Assembly: GCA_016194505.1 (NCBI GenBank)
Contig: JACQBK010000034.1
Coordinates: 1-35,243, forward strand
DNA length: 35,243 nt
Source of the DNA: Ignavibacteriales bacterium
GTDB lineage: Bacteria > Bacteroidota > Ignavibacteria > UBA10030
Direction: 5' to 3'
Under the pieces are notes generated by a model. That model saw only the letters and a list, made by a program, of their open reading frames with translations, did no database searches and was not told the origin of the DNA. Below are positions 6,563 through 28,322 of this stretch, in pieces (position 1 is the stretch's first letter; each line of letters starts with the position of its first letter). The position numbers were made by a program, and so were the translations under genes.

Positions 6563-6666
6563 GCTATTCTATATAAAACGTACTGTTTTGTTACCCGAAA
6601 CTCAAGGCTATGTTCCTTCCGTTTTTCTCAATTTTAGCGTATCTTCTCAATGGTGATAATCACAAA

Positions 6667-7659
6667 ATGAAAAAATTCACACTCAAGCCGCTGCCGCACG
6701 ACAATTTGCATCTCGTTCATCCGCAGCGATTTACTATAGATTATAAGAATGACCTCAACCCCGCGCAGTATGAGGCGGTTACCTCGGTAAACGGTCCGCA
6801 CCTTATTATTGCGGGAGCGGGAACGGGCAAAACGCGCACGGTCGTGTATCGTGTTGCGTATCTTGTTGAATTGGGTGTGAAGCCCGAACATATTTTGCTC
6901 CTCACATTTACACGCAAAGCGGCACAGGATATGCTTCGCCGCGCGGCGTTGCTTCTCGATACGCGATGCGAGCAGGTTGCAGGTGGAACGTTCCACTCGT
7001 TTGCCAATAATATCTTACGCAAGTATGCAACGCTGATAGGGTTTGAGACGAATTTTACCATTCTGGATCAAGGCGATGCGGAGGATGTTATCAATCTTCT
7101 TCGCATGCGGCTGAAATACGATACGAAGGAAAAACGCTTTCCCCGCAAGGAAGCGCTCTACGATCTCTATAGCCGTTCGCTGAATACAGTGACGCCGATG
7201 AACCAAATCCTCGCGTACGATTATCCGCATTATCTTGAGCTTGAGGAGGATATTAAAAAGGTTCACGCCGCGTATGTAAGTTACAAAAAACAGCATAATC
7301 TTATGGATTATGACGATCTGCTGTTTAATCTTGGCGAGTTATTGAGGAAGAATGAGGCGATCCGTGCAACGCTTTCGGATCGGTATAAATACATTATGGT
7401 TGACGAGTATCAGGATACGAATAAAATTCAGGCGGAGATCGTCAAACTGCTTGCACTGAAACATGATAACATCATGGTGGTGGGGGATGATGCGCAGTCT
7501 ATTTATTCGTTCCGCGGCTCGACGATTAAGAATATATTGGACTTTCCGAAAGAATTTTCCAATTGTAAAATCGTGAAGTTGGAAGAAAACTTTAGAAGCA
7601 CCCAGCCGATTTTGAACTTGGCGAATGAGATATTGAAACGCGGTGCGCCGGTTAAATAG
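6667..7659 (+). pseudogene. UvrD/Rep/PcrA-type superfamily 1 helicase, N-terminal half (possibly disrupted gene or split subunit)
   Basis: LNPAQYEAV (Q motif), IAGAGTGKTRTVVYRVAYL (Walker A), MVDEYQDTN (Walker B), VGDDAQSIYSFRGS, KLEENFRSTQPILNLANEILKR, then TAG. Confidence 0.85.
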
Positions 7660-7709
7660 AAAGTGAAAAGTGAGAGGTAAGGGGTGAGAAGGGCAAAGCA
7701 AAAGACATT

Positions 7710-7823
7710 TTACCGCGGAGCGCGCCCGCCCGCCTCGGGCAGGCAGAGGTCGCGGAGAAGGACATTAAAACGTTGAAATTATTTTAAGTATCTTCTCTCT
7801 GTTCTCCGCGATCTCTGCGGTAA
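7710..7823. repeat. Inverted repeat with a nested family A palindrome in its left arm
   Basis: Left TTACCGCGGAG[CGCGCCCGCCCGCCTCGGGCAGGC]AGAGGTCGCGGAGAA (7710-7759); right TTCTCCGCGATCTCTGCGGTAA (7802-7823). Confidence 0.75.
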
Positions 7824-7878
7824 TATTTTTTTTGTTTTTTTCTTTGTGCCCTTGGTGTCGTTGTGGTTAAATTAAAAA

Positions 7879-8898
7879 ATGTACAATAAAGAACTTTACT
7901 CAAAAAAATCCGACGGAAATTTGCCCCAGCTTGTGATTGCGGAGAACGAAAACCTCCAATCTCGCTTTGTTGTGCAGAAGATTTTGGAACTACGGGAGCA
8001 GGGCATTCCCCTTGAAGAAATGGCGGTGTTGTTTCGGTCATCGTTTTTGTCATTCGATCTGGAAATTGAACTGACAAAGGCGAACATCCCATTTGTAAAG
8101 TTCGGTGGATTTAAGTTCATCGAGACATCCCATGTAAAAGATATGATCGCGTATCTGCGCGTGCTGGAAAATCCCCGCGATGTCGTTGCGTGGAACAGGA
8201 TTCTGCTGTTGATTGACGGGGTCGGTCCCCGCACCGCGGAAAAAGTGATCGAAGATATTTTAAAGAAAAGAGTAGCAACCACCGGAAACGGAACAGAAGC
8301 GGTTACAACAAAATTCTGGATGGATTACAACGCGTATCCGGAAAACGTTCAAAAAGTGTTCTCTATGTTGGGCGCAGTTGCGAAGCCGACCGTGGCTCCG
8401 GCGGAGAAAACATATCACATTCTTCAGTATTATGAGCCGATTTTGCGGGCGCGGTACGATGATCACTCCAAGCGGAAAAAAGACCTCGAGATGTTCCAAA
8501 ACATAACCGAGCGCTACAATGATGTCGGAACGTTATTAACCGATCTTGCGTTAGAGCCGCCGAACGAAAGCGTTTCCGATATCGAGTCGCCGGGGAAGGA
8601 AGAAGAATTTCTCACGCTCTCGACCATTCACAGCGCAAAAGGATTGGAGTGGAATGCGGTATTCGTTCTCTATGCGCTTGAGGGGAGATTTCCCACCAGC
8701 CGCGCCGCATCAAGCGACGACGAAATGGAAGAGGAACGACGGCTGATGTATGTCGCTTGTACGCGCGCGAAGGAACATCTTTTCATCACGTACCCCATCA
8801 ATATTTACGACCGTGAAAGCGGCATAATTTTAAGCAAGCCCTCGCGCTTTATTGCAGGCATTGAAGGAAAATTGTTGGAGCCGTGGGTGATTGAGTAA
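7879..8898 (+). pseudogene. UvrD/Rep/PcrA-type helicase, C-terminal half (continuation of 6667-7659)
   Basis: Same frame as 6667-7659; LYSKKSDGNLPQLVIAENENLQSRFVVQKI; LTLSTIHSAKGLEWNAVFV (motif V) and RRLMYVACTRAKEHL (motif VI). Confidence 0.85.
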
Positions 8899-8956: not shown

Positions 8957-10018
8957 ATGGAAACTGTCATACTTTACTTAGACCGCAACGAAAACCTCTA
9001 CGGTCCCGCGCCGCAGTGTTACGAAGTATTAAAGAACCTTGGCGTAGAGGAGTTGAGTATGTATTCACGCGATTTTACCCGCGGCGTTAAAAGCAAGCTT
9101 TCGGAACGCTTGGCGGTTGAGTTAGGCATTCCCGAGAAACAAATTTTGTTGAGCGAAGGCAGTGAAGACATGCTCAAGCAGGTTGTGCATTGCTATCTTG
9201 GTCCCGGCGAAAAAATGCTCTGTCCAGCCCAATCGTGGTGGTATTATCAGTCCGTCGCTTCGGAAGTGGCGGGAGAGACGGTCACATATTCATTGAAGGA
9301 GGGTCGAGATTCCTTTTACTACGATGTGGACGAATTGATTGGCCTTTACAAGAAAGAATCCCCCCGCGTTGTGCTTATCGCATCTCCTAATAACCCAACG
9401 GGCAATTCATTCCCCGATGAAGATTTGAAAAAACTGACCGAGGCATTCCGTGAAAGCATCGTTGTGCTGGATGAAGCGTACTGGGGATTTTCAGAATCAT
9501 CCAACGAGCACATTGCGGAGTCAGTGAGCCGCTATCGTAATTTGCTGGTGCTAAGAACGTTCTCGAAGTACTACGCCCTCGCGGGTGCGCGCATTGCGTA
9601 TGCGGCGGTTGGCACAAGCTTCAGCAAGCTCACGAAATTTTCCTCTCGGTATCTCGGCTACAATCGTATTTCAGAAGAGCTTGCGCTTGCGGCGCTCGAT
9701 TCAAGGCAATACTATTCTGATATTGCAAAAGCCATGCTTGCGGACAGACAGCGCTATTATGATTTTTTTGACCGGCAAGAGGGATTTCATTGTTACCGTT
9801 CGAACGCAAATTTCATTCTTGTGAAAATTCCTGCTACGTTAAAACTCCCCATGCAGAAATTTTTAGCGGCGCGAGCTATCGCCGTCAAATTTTTTGCGGA
9901 GAAAGAATTTGAACATTGTGTGCGGATTACCTTAGGCACGGTCGAGCACAATCGCCGGTTGATTGATGCGCTCGGTGAATTCCTTACGACGAAAACCGCA
10001 CGGGGAATATCGGCATGA
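8957..10018 (+). CDS. HisC-like PLP-dependent class I/II aminotransferase
   Basis: LDRNENLYGPAP, ASPNNPTGNSF, VVLDEAYWGF, LRTFSKYYALAGARIAYA (catalytic Lys), VRITLGTVEHN. Confidence 0.9.
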   Translation: METVILYLDRNENLYGPAPQCYEVLKNLGVEELSMYSRDFTRGVKSKLSERLAVELGIPEKQILLSEGSEDMLKQVVHCYLGPGEKMLCPAQSWWYYQSVASEVAGETVTYSLKEGRDSFYYDVDELIGLYKKESPRVVLIASPNNPTGNSFPDEDLKKLTEAFRESIVVLDEAYWGFSESSNEHIAESVSRYRNLLVLRTFSKYYALAGARIAYAAVGTSFSKLTKFSSRYLGYNRISEELALAALDSRQYYSDIAKAMLADRQRYYDFFDRQEGFHCYRSNANFILVKIPATLKLPMQKFLAARAIAVKFFAEKEFEHCVRITLGTVEHNRRLIDALGEFLTTKTARGISA

Positions 10019-10779
10019 AATGCGTAATTCTCGCCGCAGGGGAGTCAACCCGTTTGCGCCCACTGACGAATGATACCCCTAAGTGTTTGCTGAATGTTGG
10101 CGGAAAGGCTATCCTCCATCGTACGCTAGAAAACGTATTCGCGACAGGAATTAAGGAAGTTGCAATAGTTGTTGGCTATAAAGCTGATGCCATTCGTGCT
10201 TTTGTGAAAGAAAAATTTCCTCAGCGCAGTATCCGATTTATTCTTAATCCAAACTTTGCCTCGACGAATAACGCCTATTCGCTTGTGCTGGCACGAAAAT
10301 TTTTTGTAGATGAGCAAGAGCCACAACCATCCAAAGAAAAATTTTTACTGCTGGATGGCGACATTGTTTTTTCGCCGAAATTGCTCCCTTTTTTAATAGA
10401 GCAAGAAGGAGAGAATAAAATCGCCGTGCGGGTTGAAGGTAACCACGATGATGAAGAAATCCGAGTAATGATAGACGAGGCGGGCAATATTACAATGATC
10501 GGCAAGGAAACTCCGCTGAGCAAAACGCACGGAGAATCTATCGGAATTGAAATATTCTCGTACATCACTGCTAAAAAATTATTTGAAGTGTTGGAAAATC
10601 GAGTCGACCATGGAAAAGGGCGCGCCGAATTTTATGAGCATGCTTTTCAAGAAATGATTGATAACGGCGCTGAATTACAAGCAATTGATACGAGCGCATT
10701 CCCCGCCGTCGAAATCGATACGCCGAAAGATTTGGAATTAGCCGAGCAGTTTGTTGCCACAGGAACCAAGTTTTCATAA
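10015..10779 (+). CDS. Nucleotidyltransferase family protein (sugar/choline/phosphonate-type NTP transferase, LicC/IPCT/PntC-like)
   Basis: MKCVILAAGESTRLRPLTNDTPKCLLNVGGKAILHRTL...NPNFASTNNAYSL...LDGDIVFSP...AVEIDTPKDLELAEQF; 4-nt ATGA overlap with the upstream gene. Confidence 0.9.
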   Translation: MKCVILAAGESTRLRPLTNDTPKCLLNVGGKAILHRTLENVFATGIKEVAIVVGYKADAIRAFVKEKFPQRSIRFILNPNFASTNNAYSLVLARKFFVDEQEPQPSKEKFLLLDGDIVFSPKLLPFLIEQEGENKIAVRVEGNHDDEEIRVMIDEAGNITMIGKETPLSKTHGESIGIEIFSYITAKKLFEVLENRVDHGKGRAEFYEHAFQEMIDNGAELQAIDTSAFPAVEIDTPKDLELAEQFVATGTKFS

Positions 10780-10789
10780 AATCTTACCA

Positions 10790-11635
10790 ATGTACAATTA
10801 CCGCAACTCTCTCAAATCCTCTGTCTCTGATGAGCTCATCAACACGTATCTTCTGCGTCCTCTTGCCGGACTTATTGTGTGGGGGTTGTATTATACGCCG
10901 ATCACCCCTAATCAAGTGACAATAGCTTCGACGCTGGTCGGAGTTCTTGCCGCGGTTTTTTACTTAGAGGGCAATGCGCAAGCTACCGCCATTGCCGGGC
11001 TCTGCATAACACTGAAAGATATACTCGACTCCGCCGACGGCCAACTTGCAAGAGCGAAACAGCAATATAGCCGCATTGGAAGATTTATTGATTCAATCGG
11101 AGATTTTGTCGTTGATGTTGCGGTGTTCGGCGCAATCGGTTGGGTATTGTACGCATCAAGCGGTGATGTCAGGATGTTGGTTTTGGCGCTGGTGGGGTTA
11201 GCCGGAATTTCGCTTCGGGTTTCGTACCACGTTTTTTACCAAGCATCCTTTCTCCACCTTGAAAGGAAGTACGAAAACAACCGTGTAACGGAAGAAGTTC
11301 GAGAAGAAGATAAAACGGGAGAGCTTATTGTTTTGCGGTTACAGAAAATTTTCCAGTTTATCTACGGCTGGCAGGATAGATTGATGCTGGCGGTTGACAT
11401 GTGGTGCCGGGGCGGTCGGAACGATGAGCAATTTCTCACGCGCTGGTATGCCGATGCAACAGGATTAAGGATTTCCGGATTGCTTGGCTTCGGAACAGAG
11501 TTGTTCCTGCTTATGGTTTGCTCCGTTTTGAACCGACTTGAGTTATATTTGTATCTCAATGTAATCCTCATGAACGGAATTTGGGTGGCGGGAATTCTCT
11601 ACAGGAAAACAGTGTTGAAGCGGAAAGTTTATTAA
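10790..11635 (+). CDS. CDP-alcohol phosphatidyltransferase family membrane protein
   Basis: Exact DxxDGxxARx8GxxxDxxxD signature: DSADGQLARAKQQYSRIGRFIDSIGD; multiple hydrophobic segments. Confidence 0.93.
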   Translation: MYNYRNSLKSSVSDELINTYLLRPLAGLIVWGLYYTPITPNQVTIASTLVGVLAAVFYLEGNAQATAIAGLCITLKDILDSADGQLARAKQQYSRIGRFIDSIGDFVVDVAVFGAIGWVLYASSGDVRMLVLALVGLAGISLRVSYHVFYQASFLHLERKYENNRVTEEVREEDKTGELIVLRLQKIFQFIYGWQDRLMLAVDMWCRGGRNDEQFLTRWYADATGLRISGLLGFGTELFLLMVCSVLNRLELYLYLNVILMNGIWVAGILYRKTVLKRKVY

Positions 11636-15810: not shown

Positions 15811-16138
15811 TCTCAAAAACTCTTTCCGTTGTGATGTCAGGGCTTGCGCCAAAGGCGCACGCGTGCGCCATCTGTTTGGCGCATCCCTGCCTGCGGCAGG
15901 CAGGCGCCTTCGGCGGAAAAGCCCTGAATGTTTTATGTTTTTCTGTCCCCGACCTGTCCCGCCATGCCTGCGGCAGGCAGGTTGTACGGTTCCGTTTTTT
16001 GGAATCCCGCCCTAAGAACGGAATCCAAAAAGCGGGAGATGCCGAAAAACGGCAAAGGTCGTGGTAAAATGCTCATTACAATTGTAAGGGGTTTTAACCC
16101 CCTTGAAAACGTCATTAGTACATCATTTTTGAGATGAC
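15811..16138. repeat. Repeat-rich intergenic block with TGTCTCAAAAA ... TTTTTGAGAT ends and several nested palindromes
   Basis: TCTCAAAAA at 15811-15819 and inverse TTTTTGAGA at 16126-16134; CCTGCCTGCGGCAGGCAGG 15886-15904; TGCCTGCGGCAGGCA 15965-15979. Confidence 0.55.
15844..15904 (+). repeat. ~61-bp multi-hairpin repeat, copy 1
   Basis: TTGCGCCAAAGGCGCACGCGTGCGCCATCTGTTTGGCGCATCCCTGCCTGCGGCAGGCAGG; inverted second copy at 28261-28322. Confidence 0.8.
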
Positions 16139-16195: not shown

Positions 16196-16215
16196 CCTGC
16201 CTGCCGGCAGGCAGG
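16196..16215. repeat. Perfect 20-bp palindrome, family A
   Basis: CCTGCCTGCCGGCAGGCAGG. Confidence 0.85.
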
Positions 16216-16270
16216 GGCGCTAAGTCAAAAAAGAAGCTTTAAATGAAAATTTTTATCATTAAAGGTTTTT

Positions 16271-28229: not shown

Positions 28230-28260
28230 AAAAATGGATGTTTTTATTTTCCTTTGCACC

Positions 28261-28322
28261 CCTGCCTGCCGCAAGCAGGGATGCGCCAAACAGCGCGGCG
28301 CACTCGTGCACCTCTGGCGCAC
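28261..28322 (-). repeat. ~62-bp multi-hairpin repeat, copy 2 (inverted relative to 15844-15904)
   Basis: Reverse complement CGTGCGCCAGAGGTGCACGAGTGCGCCGCGCTGTTTGGCGCATCCCTGCTTGCGGCAGGCAGG. Confidence 0.8.

Follow-up and report, generated by a model that had tools for sequence, protein, structure and literature searches.

What does a bacterium make with a HisC-like aminotransferase, a nucleotidyltransferase and a cytidine diphosphate (CDP)-alcohol phosphotransferase encoded side by side? The question is raised by three genes, here termed AT, NT and CAP, on contig JACQBK010000034.1 of the Ignavibacteriales bacterium assembly GCA_016194505.1 (positions 1 to 35,243 of the forward strand; this whole stretch is referred to as the window). 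An earlier note on this DNA had proposed an operon that produces a small amino-alcohol phosphate, which is then converted to its CDP derivative and passed on to a lipid or a second alcohol. We find this general scheme probable, given the co-occurrence of the genes in relatives, an AT that does not behave as a HisC, a CAP clade separate from the housekeeping enzymes, and the kinship and amine-contact acids of NT; the three reactions, together with the substrate, acceptor and product, are what we infer from these features.

The three genes are consecutive on the plus strand, with operon-like spacing and complete catalytic motifs in all three products. AT (8957..10018) encodes a 353-residue HisC-like fold-type-I pyridoxal 5'-phosphate (PLP) enzyme, the proposed maker of a phospho-amino-alcohol, as judged by Pfam, the HisC model and an AlphaFold2 (AF2) model. 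NT (10015..10779) encodes a 254-residue LicC/PntC-type nucleotidyltransferase, by profile search a proposed cytidine triphosphate (CTP):phospho-amino-alcohol cytidylyltransferase, and CAP (10790..11635) encodes, from its ATG, a 281-residue membrane CDP-alcohol phosphotransferase, the proposed headgroup transferase, assigned by Pfam, tree and fold. Pfam matches are strong for each (Aminotran_1_2, 4.9e-41; NTP_transferase, 8.2e-16; CDP-OH_P_transf, 4.9e-12). The AT stop and NT start overlap in an ATGA at 10015-10018, and the CAP ATG at 10790 lies 10 nt after the NT stop. An alternative TTG start at 10751 would give a longer CAP overlapping NT; the family alignment favors the ATG. The predicted catalytic lysine of AT, K204, ends the TFSK motif (residues 201-204; lysine codon 9566..9568) and is invariant among 21 aligned relatives. 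NT carries the EIDTPKDLELAE motif (residues 233-244, 10711..10746), seen in the sequence and the alignment, and CAP the complete DxxDGxxARx8GxxxDxxxD motif of the PF01066 superfamily (residues 80-105, 11027..11104), in which D80-x2-D83-G84-x2-A87-R88-x8-G97-x3-D101-x3-D105 are all present and invariant among 22 aligned relatives. The tight packing and the three motifs described in the earlier note are therefore confirmed, and the gene families, motifs and packing of the trio exceed chance by a wide margin.

In the proposed scheme, AT would convert a central metabolite into a small phosphorylated amino-alcohol, NT would combine this compound with CTP to give a CDP-amino-alcohol and pyrophosphate, and CAP would transfer the headgroup to an alcohol acceptor, yielding a phosphodiester and cytidine monophosphate. 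The acceptor would most simply be a lipid (diacylglycerol or ceramide, for instance). If AT starts from dihydroxyacetone phosphate (DHAP), giving serinol phosphate, or from O-phosphoserine, giving ethanolamine phosphate, no further gene would be needed and the trio would form a self-contained headgroup-making cassette.

Co-occurrence of the trio in relatives had been set beforehand as a test of this proposal, and it was borne out. Among 151 genomes (150 relatives and the window genome), the AT subfamily was called in 56 (E <= 1e-50) and NT in 61 (E <= 1e-22), and NT accompanied AT in all 56 cases (Fisher p about 5e-36, for genomes that are related and hence not independent). In a second set, comprising 80 named AT loci from GTDB genomes, the full trio was contiguous and on one strand at 58 loci, while 8 carried an AT-CAP2 pair and 14 AT alone. 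Fetched regions placed AT, NT and CAP next to one another in families f1, f5 and f6, across many genera, with the variants CAP2-AT-NT-CAP1 and AT-CAP2-NT, and relatives of CAP are present in the window's own family and order. In one genome (G009) NT and CAP are fused in a single open frame of 558 amino acids. Carriers of the trio include Ignavibacteria/Ignavibacteriales, Bacteroidetes/Bacteroidales, Calditrichia, Aminicenantes and metagenome-assembled genomes (MAGs) of Acidobacteriota; a lone Methanoregulaceae MAG contig with an AT locus may be contamination. The subfamily is patchy rather than universal, since of the 297 genomes in an even sample of the phylum only 12 contained it, each belonging to the window's class.

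AT is closest in sequence to HisC, which raises the possibility that it is simply the histidinol-phosphate aminotransferase of a dispersed histidine pathway with incidental neighbors. HisC is its top-scoring named family and its nearest fold (AF2 model pLDDT 89.7), with CobD further down the list. However, AT scores 226.6 bits on the HisC model TIGR01141, under the equivalog cut-off of 276.55, and 131.5 bits on the CobD model TIGR01140, also under its cut-off of 290.55; no CobD exceeded that cut-off in the 41 genomes searched. Relatives of AT score 189.6-252 bits on the HisC model, and other genes of the same genomes reach 290-378 bits. Many AT-positive genomes have such a separate gene that clears the HisC cut-off and that often adjoins HisD (on contig 14 of G009, contig 257 of G025 and contig 230 of G029, for example), which refutes a HisC role for AT in genomes of this kind. 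HisD was undetected in 13 of 45 AT-positive genomes, including the window assembly, in a search aimed at HisD alone; some of the genomes lacking it are estimated to be 97-100% complete, and the window assembly 90.6%. The concern that AT might be the sole HisC of its genome was not upheld, and we regard a histidine-pathway role as highly improbable.

The residues of AT follow the same pattern. AT shares Y36, the PLP lysine K204, R212 and R323 with HisC, and in known HisC structures the kept tyrosine and arginines contribute to phosphate binding. Set against the HisCs of its family, the AT subfamily has its own invariants: R10 (alanine in HisC), W94-W95-Y96 (Tyr-Gly-Met), L233-G234 (Tyr-Asn) and K311 (arginine). 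With the phosphate region kept and the substrate region altered, a phosphorylated substrate other than that of HisC would be the natural reading. AT thus has the fold, the PLP lysine and a set of phosphate-region residues in common with HisC and CobD, but it falls below both model cut-offs, its substrate-region residues are unlike those of HisC, and its context is neither histidine nor cobalamin biosynthesis. On these sequence grounds AT is a distinct subfamily and not a histidine-pathway HisC. It is near enough to HisC to be misannotated as histidinol-phosphate aminotransferase, and, if the scheme is right, a specific function is indicated for it.

Which phospho-amino-alcohol would AT make? 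PLP enzymes with suitable activities are known from Campylobacter jejuni, where Cj1437 converts DHAP to (S)-serinol phosphate and Cj1436 decarboxylates phosphoserine to ethanolamine phosphate (PMC11800397). They resemble the proposed AT in being PLP-dependent makers of phospho-amino-alcohols. What they make is joined to a capsule sugar by amidation, and no activation with CDP is described (PMC11800397), whereas the trio scheme uses CDP. The better fit of AT to the HisC model than to the CobD model favors transamination without deciding the matter. We tentatively put DHAP transamination to serinol phosphate first; O-phosphoserine decarboxylation to ethanolamine phosphate is somewhat doubtful, and the formation of another phospho-amino-alcohol is doubtful to the same degree.

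The phosphoserine option corresponds to a specific version of the general scheme, a Kennedy-type route in which AT would make ethanolamine phosphate, NT would form CDP-ethanolamine and CAP would build a second phosphatidylethanolamine (PE) pool or ceramide phosphoethanolamine. Cj1436 provides a precedent for its first step, as does CobD, a fold neighbor of AT that decarboxylates O-phosphothreonine; phosphoserine is a general metabolite, and ethanolamine phosphate from other sources could account for genomes that have NT and CAP without AT. The HisC and CobD scores of AT argue against this route, as does the presence of ordinary PE synthesis: phosphatidylserine decarboxylase (PSD) was found in 144 of the 150 relatives, so standard PE synthesis is independent of the cassette. 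We consider the Kennedy-type route rather unlikely. Replacement of PE as the main function of the trio was rejected on the same PSD count.

If AT supplies a phospho-amino-alcohol, NT should recognize a compound bearing both an amine and a phosphate. Profile searches placed NT with LicC (CTP:phosphocholine cytidylyltransferase, 2e-30) and PntC (aminoethylphosphonate cytidylyltransferase, 3.4e-28), closer than to the inositol-1-phosphate (3e-17) or sugar-1-phosphate nucleotidyltransferases, whose matches were far weaker; a single-sequence search returned the relatives in the same order. NT has the TNNAYSL motif typical of the LicC/PntC group (residues 84-90, 10264..10284), which LicC shares. In PntC, Glu104 and Glu196 are placed to contact the substrate amine, and the LicC equivalents are Asp105 and Asp192 (PMC6697681). 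These pairs align with D114 and E208 of NT, both putative amine-contact residues; D114 stands in a D114-G-D116 segment (10354..10362) in which D116 is a likely metal ligand, and E208 is encoded at 10636..10638. Each of the 23 aligned trio NTs has both acids, and the two unrelated NT paralogues in that alignment do not. The conservation of these acids supports an amine-bearing phospho-compound as the probable substrate of NT. The nucleotide would presumably be CTP, as in its relatives.

PntC and LicC systems thus offer, by kinship, a close parallel to NT, since there the same enzyme family uses a cytidylyl group to activate small phospho-compounds that carry an amine. In Treponema, PntC is fused to a class V aminotransferase acting on aminoethylphosphonate (PMC6697681), whereas AT is HisC-like, and PntC clusters carry phosphoenolpyruvate (PEP) mutase, which the trio genomes nearly lack. 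Genes for choline uptake or a kinase were not observed next to the trio. A second parallel is an alternative inositol-lipid cluster of Bacteroides and Prevotella, in which a nucleoside triphosphate (NTP) transferase, a CDP-alcohol phosphatidyltransferase and a HAD hydrolase lie near an inositol-phosphate synthase and have been proposed to make inositol lipids, the roles of the first two enzymes being unconfirmed in that study (PMC9246714). Like the trio, this cluster pairs a LicC-like NTP transferase with a CDP-alcohol phosphatidyltransferase next to a maker of the phospho-headgroup; it differs in that the maker is inositol-phosphate synthase in place of a HisC-like PLP enzyme, and the trio has no conserved HAD hydrolase.

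The Bacteroides/Prevotella cluster would fit an alternative in which the trio is part of a route to phosphonates or inositol lipids with a first enzyme encoded at another site in the genome, as would the kinship of NT with PntC and, more distantly, with inositol-1-phosphate cytidylyltransferase. However, among 42 AT genomes PEP mutase exceeded the cut-off in one and inositol-phosphate synthase was found in two. The earlier note had seen neither enzyme near the operon, and this holds genome-wide for the window assembly, in which nothing matched PF01658 and the PEP mutase model drew only a weak, sub-cut-off match. The near-absence of both starting enzymes largely refutes such a pathway, which we judge most improbable.

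The remaining step depends on CAP. In a tree of CAP proteins, the window CAP fell within a supported clade (96/97) that adjoins the CAP2 group. The PssA-like genes, which lie beside PSD, and the PgsA-like genes from these genomes, the window genome's own copies among them, fell elsewhere; the deeper joins are weak and the branches long. Grouping with housekeeping PgsA or PssA, which would have counted against the proposal, was not observed. The AF2 model of CAP is all-helical (pLDDT 89.2), and among solved proteins its closest relatives in both sequence and fold are AF2299 and IPCT-DIPPS, followed by phosphatidylinositol-phosphate synthases; eukaryotic CEPT1 and CHPT1 are more distant. In archaeal IPCT-DIPPS (4mnd) and AF2299 (4o6m) a cytidylyltransferase and a CDP-alcohol phosphotransferase occur jointly, fused in IPCT-DIPPS as are NT and CAP in G009. 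Their headgroup is inositol, however, and CAP is only about 17-20% identical to either.

These neighbors allow for a product that is not a lipid. From the same CDP-amino-alcohol, CAP could pass the headgroup to an alcohol that is soluble or part of a glycan, and the product would then be a surface decoration or a compatible solute comparable to di-myo-inositol phosphate. DIPPS couples CDP-inositol to inositol-1-phosphate, and DIPPS-type enzymes are among the closest folds to CAP. Surface decorations are supplied by LicC and PntC (PMC6697681). Against a soluble or glycan acceptor, the trio lacks conserved phosphatase or glycan genes as neighbors. Most CDP-alcohol phosphotransferases, moreover, act on lipids. 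A non-lipid product therefore seems unlikely to us, and a lipid is retained as the simplest acceptor.

Several observations weigh against the make-activate-transfer scheme. The acceptor is not readable from the modeled CAP fold, whose nearest relatives are AF2299 and IPCT-DIPPS and not the eukaryotic choline/ethanolamine phosphotransferases. AT lacks an adjacent NT or CAP at the 14 lone loci noted above, although at 3 of these CAP2 and NT lie <=3 kb away, beyond DUF192 and polyphosphate kinase genes. Conversely, 5 of the 61 NT-positive genomes keep NT and CAP without AT, and genomes of family f3, in which neither NT nor AT passed the detection thresholds, retain CAP2 and CAP1 as a pair. Because the pair is kept there on its own, CAP in f3 genomes may use another donor. 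The tandem f3 loci are L047, L048, L049, L050, L052, L063 and L064.

The f3 genomes bear on a further alternative, in which the donor of CAP is CDP-diacylglycerol, as for PssA and PgsA, and its tie to NT and AT is loose. The phosphatidylinositol-phosphate synthases among its fold relatives also use this donor. The NT-CAP fusion in G009, the tight linkage of the genes and the closer folds of AF2299 and IPCT-DIPPS all argue otherwise, and we think CDP-diacylglycerol a very unlikely donor for the trio CAP.

If the make-activate-transfer scheme is correct, a HisC-like PLP enzyme is a new entry point into the known logic of making a headgroup phosphate, activating it with CTP and transferring it with a CDP-alcohol phosphotransferase. 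Each single step has close precedents; a HisC-like PLP enzyme as the first enzyme of an NT and CAP module is undescribed in the literature searched, which returned no account of the trio, of CDP-serinol or of phosphatidylserinol, most subscription papers and preprints lying outside its reach. The same search found no lipid data for cultured Ignavibacteria. The scheme predicts that various bacteria, most of them uncultured, contain an unrecognized phosphodiester or amino-phospholipid. As a bolder and more tentative proposal, which we regard as rather less likely than not, the product may be a membrane lipid whose headgroup, for example phosphoserinol, is undescribed as a CDP-activated bacterial headgroup and is made de novo from DHAP across Ignavibacteria, Bacteroidia, Calditrichota and Aminicenantes-type bacteria.

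The surroundings of the trio show some recurrent features. At 19 of the 80 loci (including L097, L106, L108, L109, L111, L114 and L147) the trio is immediately preceded or followed, on the same strand, by a gene for a LysE-type transporter (PF01810, ~270 aa). The MAGs with loci L097, L108 and L109 may have a second headgroup cluster downstream of the trio, where another CAP gene occurs with a distant second NT-like gene, a TetR regulator and one gene that matches nothing in Pfam. In Ignavibacteria, nine loci (L103, L107, L112, L116, L118, L120, L126, L135 and L139) carry AT without NT or CAP in a constant gene block. From gene sizes this block was suspected to be a histidine operon, which was ruled out by a Pfam check in the matching L125 block: the genes encode radical-SAM/UPF0004 (MiaB-like), histidine-phosphatase, ABC, enoyl-CoA hydratase and DUF192 proteins. 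Conserved neighbors in f3 and f6 (c2, c5, c16 and c19) appeared housekeeping-like by eye (e.g. Rho, phosphofructokinase) and offered no clue to function, and a PHROGs search returned families of unknown function only.

Elsewhere in the window, a UvrD/Rep-type helicase is split over two plus-strand genes, with the N-terminal half (PF00580) at 6610-7659 and the C-terminal half (PF13361) at 7879-8898. Wherever both halves were found in relatives (f1 and f3), they form two distinct neighboring frames on one strand, so the split is conserved and is not a frameshift. The window also has a short repeat, rich in GC and with GCCTGCCTGC/GGCAGGCAG at its core, that recurs in the spacer between the helicase genes (7657-7878) and at 15872-15904, 16205-16235 and 28241-28293.

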